This document shows, piece after piece, positions 1,499-12,886 of a stretch of 22,485 nt of DNA. A model generated the notes under the pieces. The model worked only from the letters and a program-made list of their open reading frames with translations. It did not search any database and was not told the DNA's origin. The stretch lies in the IMG/VR virus record IMGVR_UViG_3300026278_000005, positions 1 through 22,485 of that record. The stretch is one strand, 5' to 3'. Position numbers and translations under genes: made by a program. This stretch comes from a virus. Positions within the stretch are counted from its first letter, which is position 1, and every line of letters starts with the position of its first letter.

Positions 1499-2806
1499 GT
1501 GGATTTCTTTAATACGAAAAAGGTCAGAAAACTTGAGAGAAAGGTCAGAGACCTGCAGGTAAAGACAGCAGAGAAGAAGGAGCTGTCTGCCGTGCTTTAC
1601 GGGAGTGTCCTCTACTCCGAGGACTGGCTAGACGCTTTGCAGAATGACCTTACGGTCTCTGGACCCTGGGATGCCTACAAGAAGGTTTCCCTCGTGACTC
1701 AGTGCATAAATGCCACATCACATTACGCAACAAGGAAGGGCTTTAGAACAGCGATAGAGGTTAATACCCCGCAAGCGCAAGAGATTTTGAGCAAAATCAA
1801 CAATATCAATAGAAAGGTGAACTTGGATAACATAATCGCTATGGCGATTATCAAGAGGGAAATAACAGGGAGGGCTGCGTTCGAGATTGTAAAGGACGGC
1901 AATGGACAGATAGTTGCGCTACTACCTTTAAGCTCAGAAGCTATTACTCCCCACCTTGATGAGGAAACGCAAATGATCGACTATTTCGAGTACACAAGCG
2001 CAAAGAACGGACGGTTAGAGGTAGAGGACGTCTTGTACTTCCCTAGGATGCCATTCGGAAGGGACATGCGCGGTGAAAGTGCGATAAGTCCTATAATGAA
2101 TGTCGTGAAGCTCAAATTAGAGTTGTATAAGGACCTGCTAGAAAGTGCAAAACGACTTTGGGGGCCTATGGGTCTTTTCCAGATGGATACCACCGATATA
2201 AGGGATCCTGCTAAGAAAGAGGAGAGAATGAATGCCTTCGCAAACAAGCTTAAGCCCGGCAGAAGCATCGTGTACAATAAGGCCATAGAGGCTAAGGTGA
2301 TTGATCTTAAGCCCGACATCATGGGACTAGTACGCGCGATCGAGAAGGCAGACGAGGAGATAATGGGCAACTGGCAGATGCCTAAAGCTATCTTTGCTAG
2401 GGAGAAAACTGTTACGAAGGCAACACTCTCTGCAGCCTTAGATGCACTATACGAGGGACCGATTGAGAGCGTACAGAGGTTCTTTAAGCGCGAAATCGAG
2501 AGGCAGTGGTACGATAGGATTGTAAGGAACGAGCTTAAGATGGACCCGGAGGTATATGCAGTAAAACACCTATGGAATCCTGTCACAAGACCCGATGCCG
2601 ACCTGATTCGGGCCCTAGCTTACTCTGTAAGGGTTGGTGCAATGACTAAGGAGGAATTCTTCGCGATCATGGGGTGGCAAGTTATGACGCCTACGAATGC
2701 ATCGCCACCCGTTCAAGAGGTGAAATCTCCTACGGATATCGAGGATGTAATTGCCGAAATACAGGAGATGAAGAAGGAGCCAAAAGAATTTCCAGAGGAG
2801 GAATAA
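1499..2806 (+). CDS. Portal protein
   Basis: The portal forms the dodecameric ring at one capsid vertex, through which DNA is pumped by the terminase and to which the neck and tail attach. The 435-residue protein starts with GTG, 4 bases after the terminase stop. Residues 1-25 are a charged helix. The rest fits a phage portal: an N-terminal wing, the segment ITGRAAFEIV (about 121-130), then VEDVLYFPRMPF and RGESAISPI near 176-200. Long helices rich in K/E/R follow (stem and crown). The C-terminus from about 405 is acidic and probably disordered (EIQEMKKEPKEFPEEE). Position between terminase and prohead protease agrees. I recognise it by pattern and context; the exact portal family is not assigned. 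Confidence 0.9.
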   Translation: MDFFNTKKVRKLERKVRDLQVKTAEKKELSAVLYGSVLYSEDWLDALQNDLTVSGPWDAYKKVSLVTQCINATSHYATRKGFRTAIEVNTPQAQEILSKINNINRKVNLDNIIAMAIIKREITGRAAFEIVKDGNGQIVALLPLSSEAITPHLDEETQMIDYFEYTSAKNGRLEVEDVLYFPRMPFGRDMRGESAISPIMNVVKLKLELYKDLLESAKRLWGPMGLFQMDTTDIRDPAKKEERMNAFANKLKPGRSIVYNKAIEAKVIDLKPDIMGLVRAIEKADEEIMGNWQMPKAIFAREKTVTKATLSAALDALYEGPIESVQRFFKREIERQWYDRIVRNELKMDPEVYAVKHLWNPVTRPDADLIRALAYSVRVGAMTKEEFFAIMGWQVMTPTNASPPVQEVKSPTDIEDVIAEIQEMKKEPKEFPEEE

Positions 2807-2809
2807 AAT

Positions 2810-3079
2810 ATGGACAAACAGGTAAGTGACCCTTTTGAGCTCGTACAGATGGGAATAGCAACCATCGTTGAACTTGAACAGAAGGAGTTTAAAACAACTC
2901 CTCCTATGGGCGTTAGGCCAGGAGCCCCACAACCTGAAAATCACACCCACGTAGCGGTTGTCGATGAGAACGGCATGGGAGAGACTAAAGCTGACAACAC
3001 TGGGCATCAGCACAAGGTACGCAACTGGGTGGCTCTGTACTCGGGTGTAGGACCACACATTCACAAGGTCGAGAGGTAA
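2810..3079 (+). CDS. Small HxH-rich protein, probable metal-binding virion component
   Basis: This 89-residue protein is preceded by a good ribosome site (GAGGAGG) and ends directly against the ATG of the giant frame. Residues 1-35 form a short helix-like part. Residues 44-86 contain three HxH motifs: H45/H47 (NHTHV), H66/H68 (GHQHKV) and H83/H85 (PHIHKV). The first two are separated by a turn rich in D, N and G (VDENGMGET). Such HxH pairs bind metal in several phage fibre and spike proteins, where they stabilise oligomers; that comparison is inference here. The same three-motif module recurs inside the next gene at residues 1183-1222. The gene lies between portal and protease, so it is probably made with, and built into, the prohead. 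No function is assigned. Confidence 0.75.
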   Translation: MDKQVSDPFELVQMGIATIVELEQKEFKTTPPMGVRPGAPQPENHTHVAVVDENGMGETKADNTGHQHKVRNWVALYSGVGPHIHKVER

Positions 3080-6000
3080 ATGCCATTCTATAAAGGGCGT
3101 AACTGGAAGAACCTTCCTGACCAAGAGCTCGTCTGGGCTCACTTTCAATGTCACCGCGCTTACGGGACGTACTTAAGATACGGGAAGTATCATGATGAAA
3201 AGAACAATTCCTGGTCGTTGGAAGACTTTTACAACCAGCATAAGCTGATATGGCAGGAAATGAAAAGACGGGGTATGAATGTAGACCCGAACGATGAACT
3301 GCTGAAGATTGGACCACGAACTCATGAAGATTGGAGCTCTATTCACTCAGGCAATATTACTCAAGATGAGATAGAGCGATGCGTAAAGGACCCTAAGTGG
3401 CAGGCGTTCAGAGAGTCTTTAAAAGGATTGCCTTTAGGAGAGCAGTTCACAAAACTGAAGCAATGGAATAATCAAAACTCAAGATGCGCAAAAGTTCAAG
3501 TAACCAATTACATTAATGCCTTAAGACGTGGAGGATTACTGGAGGAGATTGCAATGACCAAACAGAAGAAGCTTAAGATGTTTCTGGTCGGTGCTCAAAA
3601 GAAGCCGATAGCAGACTTAGCGGATGGTGTCATGATAAGTGCCGTTCAGACTAAGTCTCGCGGTGCTCTAAGGCCTTGGATCGATAGCTATAAGGGCATG
3701 ATAGTAATGGACAATGGTATCTTTAGTAACATTGTCATGTCCGTCGAAGAGCTAGCGCAGAGGACTAGAGAGGTTGTTCCTCATGTTGTTTGTGGTCCTG
3801 ACGTATTGTTCCAGCATGACATACATATCAAGAGTATTAAGAGGCAGCAGGATTTCCTCAAGCAGAAGTTGCCTAAGGAAACCGAGGTCATGCTTATCCC
3901 TCAAGGGAACACCTGCCTGGAGTATGAGTGGTGCATAGGTGAAATCATCAAGATGAACCCTGCTTGGATTGGACTGGGTAGGATGAGCATGAAAGTCGCA
4001 GGTTACCCTGGGAAGGGACATGCGCAAAGGACGTACTGCCTGAAAAGACTAGAGGAGCTTGGACTTTTGGATAAGATCAAGAGCCAAGGTATTAAGATGC
4101 ATGCCCTCGGGGTTTCAAAGCCATTCGAGTTCAGGTACTTTAATCGCTTTGGATTCGATTCATTCGACAGTATGTCATACATTTACGCGAGCATATTTAA
4201 TCAGTTAGTTTATCCTTTGGACGCTACAGAAAGTCAGTTTGCCCTAGAGAACGGTGAGGTTAAGAGGAAGAAGGGGGAAAGTGATGAGCTTTACCAGGCC
4301 AAAGTGGAGTTTGCCAAGGGGTATCCTTGGGATAAGTCCTTAGAAGAGAGACAGGAGTGGATTATAAAGAACATTTGGCGCCCCATGATGGAGCAGTACG
4401 CTCAAGATAAGCATATTGAGAGACTGACTGGACATCTGCGGTGGGAAGACAGGGATGATACTCCAATGCTTCAGAAACCAGGCAAAGAGAAACTCAGGGA
4501 AGCTATCCAGATGGATGAAGTACTATCCCTCGAGGACCTTAAGCACATTGAAATTGAGACTCTTGACGAGGACTATGTTCGTTCGTATCATCTCATGATT
4601 CACAACGCTTTGAACAGACAGACGATAGACGAGAAACAGCCCTTCGATCCAAAGGAGTTAAAGCAGCTTCACGAGAAGGTAGTAAAGAGGATGGAAGAGC
4701 TTGGAATTGCACACCAGAGCCCTGTAGAGCTAGACGAGAAGTTTGCTCCGGTGGGCTCAAGCGGACACGTTATCGGAGAGGAAATTGTCCTGGAAGATGT
4801 ACTTAAGCACTTCGAGGACTTTAGGGTGTCGTGGCCACATGTCTATCTTACCGGCGGCATCGTTAATAGGGGCAAAACCAAGGGAGACATCGATATACTG
4901 ATTAAGAGCATCGAGAAAGACCCTATGAATGTGCCTATAATGTTTAGGATCTTGCGTATGTTACCCCCGGAGCTTGCGAACAGGGTACAGTTCTTATTTG
5001 AAGATACAACGAAGTCACATGGACATGTTCCTGGGCCATATACAAATCACATCCCACTATATGGGATTCAGATGCAGGCATTGAAGCCATTTAAGACGGT
5101 AGAGATGGCTAGGGGAATTGTGCCAATGGAGTTCTTCACTCCGCTTAAGCCAACCATTGGATATAAAGCGGGGTTTGTCTTTGGTTGGGACGCCCTAGTG
5201 GAGGTAGTGGAAGACGATATGTATCCTGTTGTCGTGCAAAAGAAGTATGATGGAGCGCGAGTTCAGATTCACAGAAAAGGTAAAGATGTAAAAATCTTCT
5301 CAGACGATGGACACCGCATCGACCATAGGATGCCTACCTTCGTGGAGGAAGTTCAAAAGTCAGAGTGGCCGGAAGAATTCGTAATTGATGCGGAATGCGA
5401 GATGTGGATAAGGGGTAAACACCAGGGACGAGAGATCGTTAGTGGCTTCCTTAGAAAGACGGACTCGCTTCAAAAGGGTGAAGACAGCTATCTTGTGCCT
5501 AATGTATTCGATATCCTCTATATCTCAGGGAAAGGCGATCTGCACGACTACTCTTTGGACGAAAGAATGAAGCATCTCGATAAGTTACCTATTAAGCAGA
5601 GCACTGATAGGGTGCCGCGTACTGGAGAGTTCAATCGTACGCCTTCCTATGTGGCACAGGACGCTAAGACGATGGTTCAGTTTGGTAAGAAGGTGGCCGA
5701 GCTTCCCGGGAGCGAGGGAGCGATGGTCAAGAGTCTCAAGAGCAGATACGAGTTGGATGGACAAACGAGTGAGTGGGTGAAGTACAAGAGGACAGTGGAA
5801 TTCGTTGTAGCTGCCATTGAGAAGTTGCCTACAAAGACGGAGGGTGTTTTTAACTATCAGATGGGCATAGTTCCAACAGGCATGGACATCGCGGAGTCAG
5901 ATATTAGGATGGTTGGTGGTAAGAAGTACGCGTACATCGGTAAGACGATGAATACGGTTTTGGATGTTGCTCTAGGGACCCCGTTACGGGTTACAGCGGA

Positions 6001-8038
6001 GAACCTATTTGTATATAAGGATAAGCTTAGGTTATATTTACCGGTGGTCATCGAAGAGAAGGTCAGCGACAAGATTTATGACGCAAAAACAACGATAGAG
6101 GTGGCTAAGGAAGCTGGACTTTTGCAGGAGAAGGAAATGCAAACATCCTGGCCGGATGAGTCAAAGACCCATAGGTTCGTTATTCAACTACACTTCCGCG
6201 GAAAGTCTGTCCATCATGACTTTAGGACTAACATTAACGGCGAACTGGAAGGGTGGACGATCTTCTCACAGCCTGCTGGCGTCGTGAAGAAGGAACCTGA
6301 ATCTATCAGTGAGGCTAAGAAGTATGAGAAATCAGTGAACTGGAAGTGGCCGAAATCAGATGTCCACGCACAAGCAGGACAGAAGGCTCGACAGCCAGTT
6401 GACTGGCTAGACGTTCAAGGTAAATTTGAGCCAGGGACCGTGGGTGCGACTAGGGAGAAAGCGGGATTCATGCTCATCGTTGACAAGGGTGAAGTTGAAT
6501 TCGGGGCTAGGAAAACGTGGTTTTATGAGTATTTCCTGCATGGAGCAAAGTTTAGTGGACGTCTGATTTTCCGCTTCATCCCAAGGGTTGGCATGGTGGC
6601 AGAAGTACAGACGGATGACAGCGATAATCACCATCATGCAGTGCACATAGGAAAGGACGGTAAGGGAAAGACTACTGTGGCAGAAAATCACTGGCATGAA
6701 GTTGAAAACTACGAAGTCAAAATGGCAAATAATCACACTCACAAGCTTCCATGGTCGAAGCTCGAGGGTGAAGAGGTTGGTTTCTGGAACTCTTGGATGC
6801 CAGAAGACCAGCTACCCTATGTGCTAACAAAGAGCGCTGTCGAAGAGAACTGGATTCCTCCTCAAGGGATTAGCGCCTTGCCGAAAGACATTAGGGACAA
6901 AATTCCCGAGAGGTATAAGTACTGGCTTAGTGCCTCTAGGGAAGAGAGAATTAGGATTAGGAACGAGTTAGTGAAGGCAAAGGACATCAAGTTCAAGGTC
7001 AAGCAGAAGTACGACTCTAAGCACTTCTTGCTAGAGAAAGATGACAAGTACTACTTGGGAACTACGACAGATTGTGAGTTGGCTGAGAATAGCACGGCAA
7101 CGTGGGCGTGCTTCGAGAGTGTAGTGGCGGTCGACCTGAAGAAAGGGTCTTTTGTCCTACAGCATCACTGGTGGAAAGGACAAGTAGTTATAAGGGCTGG
7201 TCCTTCTGTAGAACACTGGGATTTGTTTATTCTACCCGAGGGAAAGATGTACGTTCTTAACCAGAACCCCTTGGAAGGACCCTCGAGTGCTAGCATTCGG
7301 AACCCGTATTCAAAGGAGTTTTGGAAGAAGGGTACCAACGGTCCTGAGCTAATAAAACCTGGGGAGCCTGGTAACCCGACAAAGAACACACCTGCATGGA
7401 CAGAGATTGTTGACAGCGGGGAGGTTAACATACTGGAAGATGGAAACCTTTTCAAGAGGTTCAATTTCTCGGGAAAAAACCTCAAAGGAACCTACGCCAT
7501 GAAACGAGAGGATGCGGACATTAACCTCTGGGAGTTTGCCAAAGTGGAACTTCCAGGGTTGCAGAAAACCTTAGAAAAGGGCGAGTGTCTTAAGCAGCAG
7601 TCCATGTACTTGTCTATCGAAAAGTTCGGAAGGTACGGGGACAAGTACGTTGTAGTTGGTAGTGCACTCTCATATGGGGTTTGGAACGGTGATTGGTACT
7701 CTCCTGAGGTTTTGGATGATAGGCCAGAGCGAGTCCTAGGAATCCCTGTCGGTGTTGGAAGTCACAAAGACAAGACTAACCATGGGAGGGTTATCGATTA
7801 CGAGTATGATAAGGAGAAGCACACAATCAAGATTGCAGTTGAAATTGATACTCCGGAAAAACAGCTTGAAATCGAGAATGGAGACTATACAGGCTTTAGC
7901 GTTGAAATCACTGTCCTTAGCTGTGATGTACGTCATATCATTGAGAAGATTGTCAGTTATGACAGAGTATGCATAGTTAAGAATCCTGCTTGTGAGGTGT
8001 GCACAATTGAACGAGTTGAAGGGAAAGCATCTAGTTAA
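3080..8038 (+). CDS. Multi-enzyme polyprotein: TGT/DpdA-like, nucleotidyltransferase, ATP-dependent DNA ligase, LigD phosphoesterase-like (x2) and XkdF/S78 prohead protease
   Basis: A 1652-residue frame in the place of the prohead protease. Domains seen: helical HxxxH domain (16-76). TGT/DpdA-like barrel (165-385) with MDNGIF (D211), PQGN (Q275) and GFDSFDS (D360, D363), without the Cys zinc cluster of tRNA enzymes. Second HxxxH domain (499-553). Nucleotidyltransferase fold (570-680) with GG 592-593 and DID 603-605. Ligase core (685-1000) with KYDG (K722 adenylation site), motif III-like VIDAE, motif IIIa VFDILY, EGAMVK (E879) and WVKYK, without the N-terminal DNA-binding domain of archaeal ligases. 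Phosphoesterase-like domain 1 (1030-1170) with H1038, H1045, D1047, R1049. Triple HxH module (1183-1222). Divergent phosphoesterase-like domain 2 (1300-1490) with HWD 1379-1381. Protease (1505-1648) with GSHKD (H1562) and GFSVE (S1607). The protease probably processes itself and scaffold; release of the enzymes is inference. Confidence 0.9.
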   Translation: MPFYKGRNWKNLPDQELVWAHFQCHRAYGTYLRYGKYHDEKNNSWSLEDFYNQHKLIWQEMKRRGMNVDPNDELLKIGPRTHEDWSSIHSGNITQDEIERCVKDPKWQAFRESLKGLPLGEQFTKLKQWNNQNSRCAKVQVTNYINALRRGGLLEEIAMTKQKKLKMFLVGAQKKPIADLADGVMISAVQTKSRGALRPWIDSYKGMIVMDNGIFSNIVMSVEELAQRTREVVPHVVCGPDVLFQHDIHIKSIKRQQDFLKQKLPKETEVMLIPQGNTCLEYEWCIGEIIKMNPAWIGLGRMSMKVAGYPGKGHAQRTYCLKRLEELGLLDKIKSQGIKMHALGVSKPFEFRYFNRFGFDSFDSMSYIYASIFNQLVYPLDATESQFALENGEVKRKKGESDELYQAKVEFAKGYPWDKSLEERQEWIIKNIWRPMMEQYAQDKHIERLTGHLRWEDRDDTPMLQKPGKEKLREAIQMDEVLSLEDLKHIEIETLDEDYVRSYHLMIHNALNRQTIDEKQPFDPKELKQLHEKVVKRMEELGIAHQSPVELDEKFAPVGSSGHVIGEEIVLEDVLKHFEDFRVSWPHVYLTGGIVNRGKTKGDIDILIKSIEKDPMNVPIMFRILRMLPPELANRVQFLFEDTTKSHGHVPGPYTNHIPLYGIQMQALKPFKTVEMARGIVPMEFFTPLKPTIGYKAGFVFGWDALVEVVEDDMYPVVVQKKYDGARVQIHRKGKDVKIFSDDGHRIDHRMPTFVEEVQKSEWPEEFVIDAECEMWIRGKHQGREIVSGFLRKTDSLQKGEDSYLVPNVFDILYISGKGDLHDYSLDERMKHLDKLPIKQSTDRVPRTGEFNRTPSYVAQDAKTMVQFGKKVAELPGSEGAMVKSLKSRYELDGQTSEWVKYKRTVEFVVAAIEKLPTKTEGVFNYQMGIVPTGMDIAESDIRMVGGKKYAYIGKTMNTVLDVALGTPLRVTAENLFVYKDKLRLYLPVVIEEKVSDKIYDAKTTIEVAKEAGLLQEKEMQTSWPDESKTHRFVIQLHFRGKSVHHDFRTNINGELEGWTIFSQPAGVVKKEPESISEAKKYEKSVNWKWPKSDVHAQAGQKARQPVDWLDVQGKFEPGTVGATREKAGFMLIVDKGEVEFGARKTWFYEYFLHGAKFSGRLIFRFIPRVGMVAEVQTDDSDNHHHAVHIGKDGKGKTTVAENHWHEVENYEVKMANNHTHKLPWSKLEGEEVGFWNSWMPEDQLPYVLTKSAVEENWIPPQGISALPKDIRDKIPERYKYWLSASREERIRIRNELVKAKDIKFKVKQKYDSKHFLLEKDDKYYLGTTTDCELAENSTATWACFESVVAVDLKKGSFVLQHHWWKGQVVIRAGPSVEHWDLFILPEGKMYVLNQNPLEGPSSASIRNPYSKEFWKKGTNGPELIKPGEPGNPTKNTPAWTEIVDSGEVNILEDGNLFKRFNFSGKNLKGTYAMKREDADINLWEFAKVELPGLQKTLEKGECLKQQSMYLSIEKFGRYGDKYVVVGSALSYGVWNGDWYSPEVLDDRPERVLGIPVGVGSHKDKTNHGRVIDYEYDKEKHTIKIAVEIDTPEKQLEIENGDYTGFSVEITVLSCDVRHIIEKIVSYDRVCIVKNPACEVCTIERVEGKASS
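3541..3556 (+). promoter_or_regulatory. Internal Shine-Dalgarno and in-frame ATG within the polyprotein
   Basis: GGAGGAG at 3541-3547 lies 6 bases before ATG 3554, which is codon 159 of the giant frame. This is one of the best ribosome sites in the window, and better than the one before ATG 3080 (GAGAGG only 3 bases away). The start sits just in front of the TGT/DpdA-like domain. It could give a second product of 1494 residues lacking the first helical domain. GGAGGAG also encodes in-frame residues of an acidic helix (LLEE), so chance is possible. Confidence 0.45.
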
Positions 8039-8408
8039 GCGTGCGACCGTCGGTATCTCGGTCAATCGCAGACCCAAGATGCGGTTTGGTATTAAGCTCT
8101 TACCATACGTAGAGATTTATGGGAAAATCGACGAGCTCGAGAGTCTTAAGGCAGAGCTCCTCAATTATTCTATCGGAAGCACCCTCAGGAAGAAGTCCCT
8201 ACGTATTCAGGGAATCGAAAACTGCTCTGTAATGACGAGATTTTTGAATAAAGAGAAATACTCCTGGTGGTTTGAGTGCATAGAGATGTTTGTTGAGGGG
8301 AAGCATCTCACTAGAAAGGGGATTAAAGAAATCCTTGACAAGAGGCCTCGTATTAGAAACCAGGGGCTAAGGCTTCGTGATGAAGACATCTTGAACGCCC
8401 TTTCATGA
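8007..8408 (+). CDS. LAGLIDADG-endonuclease-like protein lacking the motif (possible remnant)
   Basis: The frame overlaps the end of the protease in another phase. I choose TTG 8007 because GAGGTG (7994-7999) lies 7 bases ahead; an upstream GTG at 7992 is also in frame. About 133 residues. The layout fits the body of a LAGLIDADG homing endonuclease domain: a beta pair (ATVGISVNRRPKMRFGIKL), a helix DELESLKAELL, the segment IGSTLRKKSLRIQGIEN, then WWFECIEMFVEGKHLT and a helix beginning RKGIKEIL. The LAGLIDADG helix that should precede TVGISV is not recognisable; the residues there (LKGKHLVKR) are basic and lack the catalytic acid. It is therefore either a decayed endonuclease or a non-catalytic DNA-binding derivative. 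The family call is tentative and rests on pattern only. Confidence 0.45.
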   Translation: MNELKGKHLVKRATVGISVNRRPKMRFGIKLLPYVEIYGKIDELESLKAELLNYSIGSTLRKKSLRIQGIENCSVMTRFLNKEKYSWWFECIEMFVEGKHLTRKGIKEILDKRPRIRNQGLRLRDEDILNALS

Positions 8409-8416
8409 GGATATCC

Positions 8417-8444
8417 TTTACCCTTCACCCCCTATTTATATATT
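8417..8444 (+). promoter_or_regulatory. Candidate promoter for the scaffold-capsid block
   Basis: In the gap after the preceding stop, TTTACC (8417-8422) and TATATT (8439-8444) stand 16 bases apart, matching a bacterial -35/-10 pair moderately well. The same A/T run (TTTATATA, 8435-8442) would also pass as an archaeal TATA box, but no purine-rich BRE precedes it. A transcript from here would have a very short leader before GTG 8477. The location before the most abundant virion proteins supports it. Confidence 0.4.
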
Positions 8445-8476
8445 CGCCAGAAGCTAAAGTATTCTTGGTGGTTATT

Positions 8477-9124
8477 GTGGATGGTAAGGACACACCACAG
8501 GAATTCATGCAGCAGGCATACCCGCCTGCTCAGGAACCTGAGACTCCTCCGCCGCAGACTCCGCCAGAGGAAGAGCTAGCAGGCTACCCATTGCCTTCGA
8601 AGAAAGTCCTCAAGGTCGATGGGGCAGCTCTGGAGTATGTTGTACTGGTGCCGAAGGGTATGAAGTCAACGTACCCTGCATATCCGGCCCAGCAGACAGC
8701 TCCAAAGCCCGCTACGCCAACTCCCCCTGACAAGGAGAAGGACGAGCTCAAGAAGCAGAACGAACAGATGAAGGCAGAGCTAGAGGCTCTTAGGCAGGAA
8801 AAGCTCCAGCGAGAGGCTGCTGAGCTTAAGGCCCTTGCCGAGTCTGTTGTCGACAAGCGGATTGAGAAAGGCTTGACGACCAAGGACAAGAGGGACACGA
8901 TGGTCGCTGAGCTTAGTAAGCTGCCCAAGGAGCAGCTGAACGTCCTGCTCAATGACGTCAGGATGCTGGAGAAGGCAGACGCGAAGCCTCAGCCGCAGAC
9001 CTCTGGTGCCCCGGAGCAGAGGGAACTTTCTGAGAGGGAGAGCAAGAAGAAGGCTCTTAGGAAGGAACTGCTTGGGCACGAGGAACCGGTAGAGGAGCTT
9101 ATCAGGAAAGGGACGGTGAGCTAA
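8477..9124 (+). CDS. Probable capsid scaffolding protein
   Basis: I place the start at GTG 8477, preceded by GGTGG (8467-8471), giving 215 residues. An ATG at 8405 would add 24 hydrophobic residues with no ribosome site and would run through the promoter-like sequence, though it overlaps the previous stop as ATGA. Residues 1-90 are rich in P, Q, E and T and look unstructured. Residues about 91-145 form a long charged coiled coil (KDELKKQNEQMKAELEALRQ and onward). The C-terminus is a basic/acidic helix (RESKKKALRKELL). Composition, and position between protease and capsid protein, fit a scaffold that nucleates prohead assembly and is later removed, probably by the upstream protease. No sequence family is recognised; the call rests on composition and order. 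Confidence 0.7.
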   Translation: MDGKDTPQEFMQQAYPPAQEPETPPPQTPPEEELAGYPLPSKKVLKVDGAALEYVVLVPKGMKSTYPAYPAQQTAPKPATPTPPDKEKDELKKQNEQMKAELEALRQEKLQREAAELKALAESVVDKRIEKGLTTKDKRDTMVAELSKLPKEQLNVLLNDVRMLEKADAKPQPQTSGAPEQRELSERESKKKALRKELLGHEEPVEELIRKGTVS

Positions 9125-9125
9125 A

Positions 9126-9521
9126 ATGACGAAGACCGAGATAATGCAGACAAGCGATATGTACGTGATCAAAGCGAAGAGCAAGACTACGACAGCAGTC
9201 ACTGCTAAGCGCTTCCACGTATTCGACACAAGTGGTTGGGCACAAGCAGGCGCAGGTGCACGGGGACCTCATGGAGTGCCGGTGGAGTCTGTCGCGGCTC
9301 CAGCGTCCGGACAGTCGGACATCGAGATACTTCTGGAGGGTACGTGCAAAGTAGAGAAGGCTGCAGGTGCTCTGAACCAGGGTACTTACGTCAAGTCGGA
9401 CGCAAACGGCAAGGCCGTTGCTTGGGTGGGCGGTGTCGATGAGCTGGAGATTGCCGCCGGCGTGGTTGTTGAGGACGCAGCCAATGACGACACCGAAGTG
9501 ATGATAAAGCTCATAAAGTGA
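9126..9521 (+). CDS. Capsid decoration protein, DUF2190-like
   Basis: A 131-residue, beta-rich protein made mostly of small residues. After a short N-terminus there is a stretch AKSKTTTAVTAKRFHVFDTS, then repeats of G, A, V and D. The middle segment LEGTCKVEKAAG-LNQGTYVK and the end AAGVVVEDAANDDTEVMIKL match the pattern of DUF2190 capsid decoration/cement proteins, which stabilise the outer surface of expanded heads. ATG 9126 has GGTGAG ahead of it and begins one base after the scaffold stop. The gene directly precedes the major capsid protein, as usual for this family. Codons are richer in G/C than in the baseplate genes, in keeping with high expression. Confidence 0.75.
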   Translation: MTKTEIMQTSDMYVIKAKSKTTTAVTAKRFHVFDTSGWAQAGAGARGPHGVPVESVAAPASGQSDIEILLEGTCKVEKAAGALNQGTYVKSDANGKAVAWVGGVDELEIAAGVVVEDAANDDTEVMIKLIK

Positions 9522-9531
9522 GGTGACTAAA

Positions 9532-10347
9532 ATGCCAGGCATAGTAATCGATAGTGACATCACAGATGGGATGAAGGCTGAGGTCATCGTCGAAGAGATT
9601 CTAGGGCTTGCCCATCCGAAGTATAACCTCAGGCCGTTCTGCAGGGTTATCGATACCGGGACCAAGAGGTCTGGAAAGTGGCCGGTAGCTACCAAGCTGG
9701 CTGGTCACGAGAAGGTTCCGCCTCTCGTCGAAGCTCCTCTGAGTGCTCAGGCCTACCAGGACCTGGACTTCGAGGAGTGGAAGAACGTTGTCCATGTGGC
9801 TATCAGCAAGGAAGCCGAGATGGACAGCAAAGTCGACATCATGCGGATGAACATCAAGGATGCTGCGCGTGACCTCGCTAGGATGGAGAACAAACAGATA
9901 GCTGAGGAGTTCGCGAAGTTCACTGACGTCGCTGGTGGAGACTGGACGGGGACGGACAACCCGATGGACGACATAATGCCTGTGGTTGCAACTATCCAGG
10001 ACCTTGGGTATGATCCGAATGCAATCGTGATGCAGTCCCAGGTCTACGCTTACTTCCTTGCGAACGAGAACATTAAGGAAGTCTACGAGCGTGGAGCTAC
10101 TGTTGCGAGGGGCGGCATCGAGATGCTAGGGAACCTGAGGGTTGGTACGGAGTCAGCGTTGGCTTCGGAAACCGCGGTCATCCTGGACACGGAAGCACCG
10201 GCATGCACTCTGTTCGACGGTCCGAGCGTAGTCGAGAGGTATTCGATGCAGGCGAAATTCGCGATGGGGTACGCTATCGCGAAGTTCCTGCAGCCGATGA
10301 AGACCCTCGATGATGCGGCTCGCGAGCTGACTGGCCTACTGTCGTAA
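9532..10347 (+). CDS. Major capsid protein, HK97 fold
   Basis: The main shell protein of the icosahedral head. ATG 9532 is chosen because GAGGTGA (9520-9526) lies 5 bases ahead; the in-frame GTG at 9523 is part of that ribosome site. The product has 271 residues, at the short end for HK97-type capsid proteins. Features that fit are an N-terminal arm, the spine-helix region (DIMRMNIKDAARDLARMENK, about 104-123), the P-domain segment VVATIQDLGYDPNAIVM with the helix SQVYAYFLANEN, and a C-terminal segment LDTEAPACTLFDG-PSVVERYSMQ. There is no long N-terminal coiled-coil delta domain, which agrees with a separate scaffold gene upstream. Codons are G/C-rich compared with neighbours, as expected for the most abundant virion protein. 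Confidence 0.88.
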   Translation: MPGIVIDSDITDGMKAEVIVEEILGLAHPKYNLRPFCRVIDTGTKRSGKWPVATKLAGHEKVPPLVEAPLSAQAYQDLDFEEWKNVVHVAISKEAEMDSKVDIMRMNIKDAARDLARMENKQIAEEFAKFTDVAGGDWTGTDNPMDDIMPVVATIQDLGYDPNAIVMQSQVYAYFLANENIKEVYERGATVARGGIEMLGNLRVGTESALASETAVILDTEAPACTLFDGPSVVERYSMQAKFAMGYAIAKFLQPMKTLDDAARELTGLLS

Positions 10348-10353
10348 GGCCAG
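10331..10353 (+). promoter_or_regulatory. Hairpin over the capsid-gene stop codon
   Basis: CTGGCCT (10331-10337) can pair with AGGCCAG (10347-10353) across a 9-base loop, enclosing the TAA stop at 10345-10347. No T-tract follows, so it is not an intrinsic terminator. It could protect the 3' end of a processed capsid message or lower translation of the next gene, whose GGTGGG site lies 5 bases downstream. Function is inference. Confidence 0.35.
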
Positions 10354-10370
10354 CTCTTGGTGGGAACGCC

Positions 10371-10769
10371 ATGACTGTGACCATCACGGACGTGAGGATA
10401 CACCTCAATGGTATCACACCGAAGGAAGTCGCGGATGACACCATACAGCAGAAAATCGATGATGCTGAGGCATTCGCAACGGAACTCGGTGTTGGTACAG
10501 GTTCCGCGAGGGACAGGTTCGTAAGGGCCTGGGCAGCATGGCGTTCTTTTATTGTTTCACGCTCATACTCTCAAGTACGCATCGGAGTAGTTTCAGTGAA
10601 AGATGACCTTGAACTGAAAGCTCAAGCCTTGAAGGAAGAGGCCCAGGAAGCTCTAAATGAGATTGCTGACGAATTCAAGGCTACGAGTACCCCGATGTTT
10701 GACGATAGGCCTCAAGACCCGTTCGAGCTGGGCGAAGACCCAGAGACAGTTGACCAGACGAAGCTCTAA
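10371..10769 (+). CDS. Head completion / connector adaptor protein
   Basis: A 132-residue, mainly helical protein right after the capsid gene, with GGTGGG 6 bases before ATG 10371. The N-terminal part (VRIHLNGITPKEVADDTI, then a helix KIDDAEAFATELG) and the following helix (ARDRFVRAWAAWRSFIV) have the layout of gp6/gp15-type adaptor proteins. These bind the underside of the portal ring and begin the neck. The middle helix (DDLELKAQALKEEAQEALNE) is strongly charged and the tail from about 105 is acidic and probably disordered. Assignment rests on gene order and fold-like pattern more than on clear sequence identity. Confidence 0.6.
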   Translation: MTVTITDVRIHLNGITPKEVADDTIQQKIDDAEAFATELGVGTGSARDRFVRAWAAWRSFIVSRSYSQVRIGVVSVKDDLELKAQALKEEAQEALNEIADEFKATSTPMFDDRPQDPFELGEDPETVDQTKL

Positions 10770-10779
10770 AGGTTTCGTC

Positions 10780-10804
10780 CCTCCAAGGACTGGAGGAGGA
10801 ATCA
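10780..10804 (+). promoter_or_regulatory. Hairpin that can hide the Shine-Dalgarno of the next gene
   Basis: CCTCC (10780-10784) can pair with GGAGG (10792-10796) over a 7-base loop. The second half belongs to the extended ribosome site GGAGGAGGA (10792-10800) that serves ATG 10805. Pairing would cover part of the site while leaving a downstream GGAGG copy free, so it may tune rather than block translation. The 5 bp stem is short; regulatory use is inference. Confidence 0.35.
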
Positions 10805-11347
10805 ATGTCTATCGCGAACGCTATAGATGGATATAGACAGTCTATCCAGAAGAAGGTTGCACAGCTCTCGGACTACATGGCGATGCGTTTTGAGCAGCTC
10901 TGGAAAGAGCAGTTCGACACAAGTGGCAGGTCCGTTGGAGCTAACTGGCATGCTCTGAGTCAGTTTACGATTTGGGCGAGAGCAGTTTTCGGACAAGGTG
11001 GAGAGACACCGTTGCTGCATACAGGAAAACTCCGCGATTCGTTGTCCATCGTACAGGATGACGAAACGACCTATACTGTGAGGGTCAGCGATCCCTTGGC
11101 ATTGCTTTTTGAGTATGGGTTCACGGTTGATGTAACTCCAGGTACTCCGAAAGGAGATGCAGTCAGAAGGTTCTTTAGTGCACTTGGCTGGCCTCTTGGC
11201 ATGCATACCACGAAGCTAATGATTCCTGCCAGGCCTATCTTCGGACCTTTGCTCAGCAAGCTTAGCGATGATGTTAGTCAGTATGCTTCTAATCTCTTCG
11301 GAAGGCCTATCCGAGTGAGTATCTCAATGGAGGTTCAGTCTACATGA
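10805..11347 (+). CDS. Mu gpG / virion morphogenesis-like neck or tail completion protein
   Basis: A 180-residue protein. An N-terminal helical part contains MAMRFEQLWKEQF (about 26-38). The family signature follows: FDTSGRSVGANWHALS (about 38-53), a helix, then GGETPLLHTGKLRDSL (about 62-77). This pattern (F-x-T-x-G-x-W-x-x-L, then L-x-x-T-G-x-L-x-x-S) is shared by the Mu gpG virion morphogenesis family and related HK97 gp10-like proteins, which act in joining head and tail. The middle continues with YTVRVSDPLALLFEYGF, and the C-terminus has PARPIFGPLL, which resembles the usual R-P-F motif. It sits in the connector block, consistent with that job. The start has a strong ribosome site that may be folded in a hairpin. 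Confidence 0.72.
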   Translation: MSIANAIDGYRQSIQKKVAQLSDYMAMRFEQLWKEQFDTSGRSVGANWHALSQFTIWARAVFGQGGETPLLHTGKLRDSLSIVQDDETTYTVRVSDPLALLFEYGFTVDVTPGTPKGDAVRRFFSALGWPLGMHTTKLMIPARPIFGPLLSKLSDDVSQYASNLFGRPIRVSISMEVQST

Positions 11348-11439
11348 ACGTTGAAGGCACAGCAAAGGTTAAAATGGAGATTGAAGGAGTAGCTTTAAGG
11401 AAAATCTCTCTGGAGGGTATTTGTCATGTCGGATGCTGA
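11344..11439 (+). CDS. Possible 31-residue coupled small protein
   Basis: ATG 11344 overlaps the previous stop as ATGA, and the frame ends at TGA 11437-11439, inside the next gene, whose ATG is at 11426. The peptide starts MNVEGTAKVKMEIEG and goes on with alternating hydrophobic/charged residues (VALRKISLEG), which would make beta strands. The triplet -EG- recurs at regular spacing. Both junctions would give translational coupling. Without it the 78 bases between neighbours would be the largest gap in this block. It may be only a leader for coupling; no family is recognised. Confidence 0.35.
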   Translation: MNVEGTAKVKMEIEGVALRKISLEGICHVGC

Positions 11440-11779
11440 GATTAGGATTTATCAGGGTGACGCAATTAAGCTGGAGTTTCACATTATCGATGATGAAGGG
11501 GACGATTTTGATTTGACTAATTTCACTGAGCGCAAGTTCATAGTCAAAGAGAGTAAGGACGACCTTGATGCATTGCTTGAAAAGACGGAGCTAGACATAG
11601 TGGTAACCTCCGCGGTTGCAGGAAGGATGGAGCTTCAGCTTAAGAATGATGATACTAAAGTCATCACAGTGGGAAGGAACTGGTATGAGCTACAGGTGGT
11701 TGACCCGCTCAATGATTTGCAGTACACCGTCTTGCAGGGCTACTTTACAGTGATTCAGAAGGTTGCGGAAGTGGTTTAG
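11426..11779 (+). CDS. Beta-sandwich (BppU N-terminal-like) structural protein
   Basis: A 117-residue acidic, beta-rich protein with GGAGGG 8 bases before ATG 11426. It begins IRIYQGDAIKLEFHIIDDEG, then DLTNF, a strand FIVKES, and later AGRMELQLKNDD and WYELQVVDP, closing with VLQGYFTVIQKV. This order matches the immunoglobulin-like domain found at the N-terminus of BppU-type proteins, which occurs in baseplate proteins and in head-tail structural operons. Its place in the connector block suggests a small neck or head-surface protein. The fold call is by pattern; its exact location in the virion is unknown. Confidence 0.55.
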   Translation: MSDAEIRIYQGDAIKLEFHIIDDEGDDFDLTNFTERKFIVKESKDDLDALLEKTELDIVVTSAVAGRMELQLKNDDTKVITVGRNWYELQVVDPLNDLQYTVLQGYFTVIQKVAEVV

Positions 11780-12146
11780 GTTGCCAGCACCCTTTGGAGA
11801 TCTGGGACAAACACTGCTGACCTTCGAGCAGACGCTTACTTTGAAGAAGAAGGGACAAACCCAGATAGTTGATGGGTATGCTGAAGAGAGCACGGAAAAG
11901 CAGATACAGTTTGAAGGTGTCATAGTGCCGGTATACTCGCTGCAATTGGAAGAGAGAGGTGCTCACTGGAAAGGGGACTCAATACTTTACGTCAGAATCT
12001 CACAGGACACCTTACCAGAGATTGAGCTTCAGGACATCGTGATCGATGAAGAGGGGCAGCAATGGAAAGTCCTCGGAGCAGAAGACTACTCTCAGCATGG
12101 GTGTGTGATGCTGTATGATATTCAGAAGGTGACGGGTAAATGCTAA
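11763..12146 (+). CDS. Head-tail stopper-like connector protein
   Basis: A 127-residue, mainly beta protein. The frame has no early ATG: TTG 11763 overlaps the previous gene by 17 bases, and TTG 11781 directly after that gene's stop is an alternative; neither ribosome site is strong. The body reads TLTLKKKGQTQIVDGY, then IQFEGVIVPVYSLQL, and ends with IELQDIVIDEEGQQWKVLGA followed by strands. That last pattern (dIV.DeeG..wkV) is typical of head-closure stoppers such as SPP1 gp16, which bind the adaptor ring and hold DNA in. It overlaps the next gene by 7 bases. Start and family are moderately certain. Confidence 0.55.
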   Translation: MRKWFRLPAPFGDLGQTLLTFEQTLTLKKKGQTQIVDGYAEESTEKQIQFEGVIVPVYSLQLEERGAHWKGDSILYVRISQDTLPEIELQDIVIDEEGQQWKVLGAEDYSQHGCVMLYDIQKVTGKC

Positions 12147-12886
12147 GTGAAGAGCAGAAAAGAGTCATCATCAGAGGGATTCCTGAAGACTTCACAGTGG
12201 AAGGTGTCCCTTTTCATGCTCAGAAGATATACGCAAATCAGTACCAGTGTCAGAGCTTTCCTGCTATCGTACTACAGTACACCTTACAAGATGCGGTTGA
12301 TAATAGGGTATTGAAAGATATCATTGTACAGCAAAAGAAGGTTACCTGCACGGTAAGGTATATGGAACCAACCCATGAGTATGTGCTATGTACAACGAAA
12401 ATAACACAAATTGTGAGGGTTGAAGGCATCTACGGTGATGAAGAGTATGTCTTTGATCCCTCGGAGTACGAGCTAGTGGATGACAAAATCAAGTTCCTCG
12501 GACCTAAGTATCCGGATGACAATACGGATGTGGCAGTTACAGTCATTGCATCTTGGGTGAGGAGAACACTAGGCGCAAAGAAGCATGATGTTCTGATGGT
12601 ACAGATCTACGCGGAAGACGTCTTTGAGGGACAGCGTAAGATAAATGGAATCATCATTGCAGAGCAAATCGCCAAAGAGGTTCATCAATGGTTCGAGTAT
12701 AAGTTTCAGAGGGACGATATGGCTGTGATAGCCATCTCCGCGATAAGTAATACGGACTTCGAGATTGAGGGCGCAATCACAAGGAGAAGGACGTTTACGC
12801 TTAATGTATCCTACTGGGAGGTTCTTGAGAAAGAACCCATTGAATCCATCGATGTGATTGAGAAGGTTCCAGTGTATCCAGGGTGA
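12140..12886 (+). CDS. Neck / tail terminator-like protein
   Basis: A 248-residue protein beginning inside the end of the previous gene (7-base overlap). The N-terminal half is beta-rich, with SFPAIVLQYTLQDAV and the acidic segment VFDPSEYELVDDKIKFLG. The C-terminal half reads KHDVLMVQIYAEDVFEGQRK, a helix (AEQIAKEVHQWFEYKF), then strands ending TFTLNVSYWEVL. Helix followed by strands, in the place between stopper and sheath, resembles tail terminator or tail completion proteins that cap the tube and join it to the neck. The N-terminal half would be an extra domain for such a protein. No family is recognised with certainty. Confidence 0.5.
   Translation: MLSEEQKRVIIRGIPEDFTVEGVPFHAQKIYANQYQCQSFPAIVLQYTLQDAVDNRVLKDIIVQQKKVTCTVRYMEPTHEYVLCTTKITQIVRVEGIYGDEEYVFDPSEYELVDDKIKFLGPKYPDDNTDVAVTVIASWVRRTLGAKKHDVLMVQIYAEDVFEGQRKINGIIIAEQIAKEVHQWFEYKFQRDDMAVIAISAISNTDFEIEGAITRRRTFTLNVSYWEVLEKEPIESIDVIEKVPVYPG

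Follow-up and report, generated by a model that had tools for sequence, protein, structure and literature searches.

The question raised by this locus is why a single viral reading frame should join a series of DNA enzymes to a prohead protease, and where such enzymes would act. The frame lies in the head module of a 22,485-nucleotide viral stretch (the window). The head-module genes of the window are the following.

1499..2806, + strand: portal protein (Pfam Phage_portal, E 3.4e-15)
2810..3079, + strand: His-rich protein of 89 aa, encoded between the portal and polyprotein genes, resembling residues 1173-1225 of the polyprotein in sequence
3080..8038, + strand: polyprotein gene, one uninterrupted frame of 1652 aa (190 kDa)
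8405..9124, + strand: charged, coiled protein, possibly for scaffolding or assembly (phrog_2976 only, E 0.005)
9126..9521, + strand: head decoration or scaffold-type protein (phrog_673, E 4.6e-9; phrog_122, E 1.2e-4)
9523..10347, + strand: major capsid protein (MCP) of the HK97 type (phrog_1650, E 5e-15; Pfam Phage_capsid, E 1e-4)

A 138-aa ORF lies directly 3' of the polyprotein gene and is followed by the charged, coiled-coil-like protein, while sheath, tape measure and baseplate genes lie 3' of the capsid gene. An NHxH-type His-rich motif was found twice, in the 89-aa gene (2810-3079) and within the polyprotein (6596-6754). Scanning the window for Rfam families and tRNA genes returned no matches.

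The initial annotation had placed an uninterrupted frame of 1652 residues in the protease slot, and the frame proved to be real. A twin contig of 41,142 bp (G001) covers the whole window at 99.94% identity, with 13 mismatches and zero gaps, and the polyprotein is identical on G001/L002. A second virus (L003) carries an equivalent single frame with 72-73% amino acid identity from end to end. Joining of separate genes by sequencing error was considered and is ruled out by the twin contig together with the L003 frame at 72%. Between the window and L003 frames, synonymous differences approach saturation and non-synonymous ones stay low in all domains, which argues that translation and selection act on the entire chain.

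From its N terminus the chain runs through a helical domain, a TGT/DpdA-type domain, a further helical domain, a nucleotidyltransferase (NTase), a ligase with its OB fold, a phosphoesterase-like domain (PE1), a His-rich stretch, a mid-domain, a second phosphoesterase-like domain (PE2) and a protease. The ligase is identified by sequence; the TGT, PE and protease identities come from predicted folds and profiles. The helical domains (1-113 and 486-556), the His-rich stretch (1173-1225) and the mid-domain (1233-1305) are additions to the earlier reading.

3080..3418, + strand: helical domain HD1 (aa 1-113), homologous to HD2, with a weak Pyr_excise match
3545..4513, + strand: TGT/DpdA-type base-exchange domain (aa 156-478), predicted from fold and PHROG profile
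4535..4747, + strand: helical domain HD2 (aa 486-556), local profile, recurring in relatives
4745..5119, + strand: putative minimal Pol-beta-type nucleotidyltransferase (aa 556-680), motif G592-G593...D603-I-D605
5120..5794, + strand: ATP-dependent DNA ligase adenylation domain (aa 681-905), nucleophile K722 in K-Y-D-G
5795..6139, + strand: probable OB-fold region of the ligase (aa 906-1020), placed after motif V and matched by a local profile in 51 ORFs
6140..6595, + strand: PE1, LigD-type 3'-phosphoesterase domain (aa 1021-1172), from profile, fold and alignment
6596..6754, + strand: His-rich NHxH repeat stretch (aa 1173-1225), read from sequence, low pLDDT in the model
6755..6994, + strand: conserved mid-domain with WIPPxGxSALPK...YW (aa 1233-1305), profile matches in 39 ORFs
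7130..7564, + strand: PE2, second PE-like domain (aa 1351-1495), cross-matched by the PE1 profile at E 9e-11
7631..8035, + strand: S78/XkdF-type prohead serine protease (aa 1518-1652), H1562 and S1607

The ligase is the most readily recognised of these enzymes, matching Pfam DNA_ligase_A_M at E 2.8e-24 and archaeal ligases in the PDB at E 5e-16. Its catalytic residues are invariant among relatives (K722, D724 and G725 in 54/54 sequences; E879 and G880, and likewise K901, in 52/52), and the DNA ligase proposed by the initial annotation is thereby borne out. Assignment of the preceding segment (aa 556-680) as a Pol-beta-type nucleotidyltransferase rests on the GG...DxD motif and a marginal PDB match. 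The spacing GG-x9-DxD is kept in an alignment of 26 sequences and D605 is present in 57 of 57 rows, so the motif side of the earlier claim stands; its weaker side is the profile comparison with the PDB, whose best nucleotidyltransferase match reached just E 0.32.

In the N-terminal half, the base-exchange-like domain suggested earlier is likewise borne out, by a match to phrog_887 (queuine TRT) at E 2e-4 and by its predicted fold. The model has a pLDDT of 86.8, and its top fold matches are TGT, DpdA (7ui4) and Cap10, the last a protein-modifying TGT relative from CBASS. D211, D241 and D363 correspond by motif position to TGT-type aspartates, and the domain is kept in 7 aligned loci. The TGT alignment gave nothing above chance level against PDB sequences, so the fold was predicted instead. 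An N-terminal pyrimidine-dimer glycosylase was considered and dropped. The Pfam Pyr_excise match to HD1 (E 8e-4) falls under the cut-off, a single local profile picks up both residues 1-113 and residues 486-584, and what we take to be the catalytic residues of T4 endonuclease V are not visible at the polyprotein N terminus; the N terminus is therefore read as a helical repeat.

Two phosphoesterase-like domains had also been proposed, and both were recognised. The top seven PDB fold matches of PE1 are all LigD-type 3'-phosphoesterases, its profile likewise finds the LigD 3'-phosphoesterase family as best PDB sequence match, and a genome search matched Pfam LigD_N at E 1.9e-4, under the cut-off. 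PE1 retains H1038, H1045, D1047 and R1049, and this H/H/D/R set is kept nearly everywhere among relatives. At the position presumed to correspond to His84 (PaeLigD numbering) PE1 has Q1105, and all aligned relatives have E, Q or a similar residue there; in the alignment, PE1 thus lacks the complete LigD catalytic set including His84. In PE2 the alignment suggests a possible site formed by H1362/H1363, H1379 and D1381. The putative metal ligands are lost from PE2 in most relatives, where the domain looks degenerate. The residue at the His84 site and the ligand loss in PE2 make two working phosphoesterases less likely, and it is this part of the claim that is weakened. Each series of relatives contains two or three PE-like copies.

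The S78/XkdF protease family acts in proheads, and S78 peptidases are akin to assemblin. The window protein on its own did not match Pfam XkdF/PF14550, its protease domain falling under the Pfam cut-offs, and the protease alignment found no matches in the PDB. Evidence for the domain comes from its relatives. H, G, S, P and A residues, including H1562 and S1607, are invariant in 19 relatives, of which four match Peptidase_S78 (best 1e-13) and four match Peptidase_S78_2 (best 1e-7). In polyproteins of the same build a C-terminal XkdF domain is unmistakable (L019 at E 3e-30, L018, L052, L012 and L033). A fold model spanning PE1 to the protease, built from an alignment with the row of ANMV-1 (an uncultured ANME virus) left out, matched mostly prohead proteases in a viral structure library. 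The proposal of an XkdF/S78 protease as the last domain is upheld by this evidence.

A search for the same architecture in other viral genomes, put forward as a check by the initial annotation, found its core series in about 50 viral loci. Profile searches returned 48 viral loci and 9 genome-bin loci with the core series, and a TGT-based search returned three further contigs. Loci with the core series come from Methanosarcinales, Methanophagales, Archaeoglobales and other archaea as well as from Omnitrophota and Elusimicrobia bins. Local profiles reveal a recurrent order of helical domain, NTase, ligase, OB, PE1, mid-domain, PE2 and protease, and at the level of the module the genes run portal, (TGT), NTase, ligase, PE, protease and MCP on one strand, whether fused or split. 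In every case where a portal gene, a capsid gene or both could be located close by on the contig, the series occupies the interval from portal to capsid in their orientation and is fused to an S78/XkdF-type protease or placed just ahead of one; in two records one marker (portal or capsid) is distant, toward the opposite contig end. This placement between portal and capsid, beside the protease, gives strong synteny support to the earlier suggestion that the enzymes are linked to the prohead through the location of the protease.

The degree of fusion varies among these loci. The one-frame form occurs in the window and L003, the series is carried in two or three genes in L020, L071, L009, L011 and L010, and it is found as separate genes in L036, L043 and L049. 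The PE series is fused to a C-terminal S78/XkdF-type protease in L020, L071, L069, L012, L014/L015, L016, L018, L019, L021, L032, L052 and L033. In ANMV-1, L010 and L008 the protease is separate from the enzymes or none is fused, from which we conclude that the enzyme-protease fusion is not required for function. The L069 polyprotein (9084-12443) holds NTase, PEs and protease, with the ligase domain missing.

Polyproteins that have no TGT carry other modules. A D12-class adenine methyltransferase occurs in L018, L016, L027 and weakly in L012; 2'-5' RNA ligase/LigT-like domains occur in L019, L021, L016 and L033; a uracil-DNA glycosylase (UDG) sits at the OB/PE boundary of the L033 polyprotein; and a metallo-beta-lactamase fold is present in L010 and L037. 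Each of these modules is a nucleic-acid enzyme or could plausibly be one, and we read them as filling, in place of TGT, an exchangeable slot for repair and modification. Candidate methyltransferase-protease fusions from Lactococcus, Rhizobium and Pseudomonas phages were set aside, these genes coding for 153-350 aa only. The genes concerned (L073, L074 and L075, from Rhizobium, Lactococcus and Pseudomonas phages respectively) are short XkdF-type head genes named DNA methyltransferase, a name that is probably an annotation transfer from methyltransferase-protease fusions.

Several known systems share part of this organisation. In the polyvalent proteins of phages and conjugative elements, large chains taken to be processed and delivered along with DNA, assemblin-like peptidases are always C-terminal and are taken to process proteins in virion assembly (PMC5512222), and the hubs of the group are zincin peptidase, ArdC, MuF and methylase-helicase (PMC5512222, Iyer et al. 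2017). The window chain resembles them in combining several unlike activities (base exchange, nucleotidyl transfer, ligation, phosphoesterase-like and protease), in lying amid virion genes from portal to MCP and in having an assemblin-like peptidase at its C terminus. It differs from those in the main text of PMC5512222, where ligases are mentioned for RNA ligases only and TGT is unnamed, in its core of ligase, LigD-type PE and NTase and in its TGT slot. Polyvalent proteins are reported to be scarce in archaea, with almost no archaeal examples above 1000 aa (PMC5512222). Among the open-licence papers searched, no description was found of a ligase fused to a prohead or head maturation protease. 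We regard the window protein as a form of the polyvalent-protein theme whose core and TGT slot are absent from the main text of PMC5512222, and whose products would be delivered by the capsid.

With LigD, the NHEJ ligase of bacteria and archaea, the window protein shares an ATP-dependent ligase and a 3'-phosphoesterase domain with a PE fold match; unlike LigD it has a Pol-beta-type NTase, with no primase-type polymerase found by the Pfam scan, two or three PE-like copies, a PE in which the His84 equivalent is missing and a fused capsid protease. It can be likened to a LigD joined to a capsid protease, although it is not itself a LigD. A further comparison is AJP62006 of ANMV-1, an ATP-dependent DNA ligase with the same NTase-ligase-PE-mid-PE2 core, located immediately 3' of the portal gene. 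In contrast to the window protein, AJP62006 has neither the TGT half nor the protease, and the adjoining gene ends in a MuF-like stretch. At L004:5868-9368 (ANMV-1), 3' of the head ligase gene, we noted a Cys-rich protein of 1166 aa with a C-terminal stretch that appears MuF-like by eye. The window protease agrees with other XkdF/S78 prohead proteases in its placement (portal, protease, scaffold/decoration, MCP) and in its conserved His and Ser, whereas the usual proteins of this type (153-350 aa here) lack the approximately 1500 enzyme residues that precede it. Similarity to DpdA is seen in the TGT-family fold (7ui4 among the top matches), the catalytic-type aspartates and the preQ0 genes on the same genome; the difference from DpdA and viral preQ0 systems (PMC6884629) is that the window TGT lies within a capsid protease polyprotein, with a second TGT-like gene separate.

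The preQ0 genes are found on the twin contig beside the window end (L063:13652-17469), where QueD, a QueE-type radical SAM protein, a phosphoribosyltransferase, FolE2, UDG and QueC are encoded; PolB, RNR, dUTPase and the second TGT-like gene follow further along G001. Given this pathway, the virus likely makes a 7-deazaguanine DNA modification, and the base modification suggested by the initial annotation gains support from the pathway and from the D12 methyltransferase and UDG in polyproteins of relatives. QueC was found in 3 of 42 records of relatives, which are mostly fragments, and none of the three has a head TGT. The second TGT-like gene alone could carry out DNA modification, which leaves the head TGT as one of two candidates for this task. 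This second protein (L063:5969-6769) is DUF6610-like and matches Campylobacter, Cellulophaga, Bacillus and Flavobacterium phage proteins, the Flavobacterium match being annotated as a DNA guanine transglycosylase. Certain Campylobacter phages have modified DNA and no DpdA (PMC6884629), and on sequence grounds the DUF6610-like TGT family may be their missing enzyme. The PolB is nearest to those of haloarchaeal tailed viruses, at approximately 24% identity, and the virus is probably one of archaea.

We consider the gene product to be a DNA repair and modification polyprotein that would be loaded into the prohead and processed by its protease, and assign this reading, in which prohead entry, cleavage, retention, delivery, substrates and timing are all inferred, a probability of about 0.58. 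Because the protease family acts in proheads, entry of the chain into the prohead and its cutting there are to be expected. The C-terminal protease (H1562, S1607) would bring the entire polyprotein into the prohead during assembly, much as other tailed-virus proteases enter with the scaffold, and during maturation it would cut itself and its partners, freeing the TGT, NTase-ligase and PE parts inside the shell. The ligase may then seal nicks in viral DNA, the PE-like and NTase parts may prepare or tag DNA ends, and the TGT domain could place a 7-deazaguanine base of the preQ0 type against host nucleases. The enzymes would most likely act immediately after ejection into the next cell, since ligase and TGT need ATP and a free base, and action during packaging is ranked second. 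The loss of the His84 equivalent in all aligned relatives, the L069 series without ligase, the unfused members, the detection of QueC in only 3 of 42 records of relatives and the second TGT are points against this reading.

A different account, to which we give a good deal less weight, would confine the enzymes to the producing cell, where they would seal nicks and complete base modification of the DNA at or in the prohead during packaging and then be degraded or inert, with nothing delivered. It is favoured by a gene that adjoins portal and protease, by the ATP available to the ligase during packaging and by the preQ0 genes being expressed in the same cell. No sequence feature separates it from delivery, and the precedents (T4 Alt, P1 DarB/DdrB and the N4 virion RNA polymerase) enter the virion and are for the most part injected (PMC5512222). 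It is unlikely that these are ordinary cytoplasmic replication or repair enzymes made from a convenient polyprotein in which the protease serves head maturation alone: phages do commonly carry ligase, UDG and DNA methyltransferase genes for replication or defence, and the parts are separate genes in some relatives, yet distant viruses retain both the late position in the head module and the gene order, and the replication genes of G001 (PolB, RNR and dUTPase) sit elsewhere. Least probable is that the PE-like, mid- and His-rich domains form a structural scaffold or shell-binding part to which the enzymes are attached as cargo. Such a role would suit the missing PE2 metal residues of most relatives, the absence of a His84 equivalent from PE1, the retention of the mid-domain in 39 ORFs and the two or three PE-like domains of each series; it sits poorly with PE1, where the LigD-site residues (H, H, D and R) are retained nearly everywhere, and with the presence of a separate scaffold/decoration-like gene.

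Extending the prohead-loaded reading to the relatives, we tentatively suggest, at somewhat less than even odds, that widespread archaeal and bacterial tailed viruses carry a modular kit for DNA care in the capsid, in which the protease would dock and release the parts, the core would repair ends and the exchangeable slot would mark the genome at entry. Tailed viruses inject bare DNA. If the suggestion is true, the slot, occupied by a 7-deazaguanine transglycosylase, an adenine methyltransferase or a uracil glycosylase, would shield that genome at entry, which bears on how far tailed viruses, above all archaeal ones, repair or disguise their DNA at this stage. A ligase, a LigD-like PE and a base-modifying enzyme joined to a capsid protease would constitute a directly testable delivery route, and the order kept over dozens of contigs offers a set of exchangeable modules for asking which DNA chemistry packaging and entry need.

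Insertions were also observed among these loci. Intein or LAGLIDADG-type insertions lie in or beside the ligase and PE domains at L052:5778-10982, L027:7281-12404, L045:283-4290 and L035:3176-6265. At L046:7608-12997 approximately 2 kb splits the ligase, and at L060:647-6916 approximately 3.5 kb separates OB from PE1, each a possible intron or mobile element. The twin contig also has a minus-strand gene (L063:956-2839) with an intein splicing domain.
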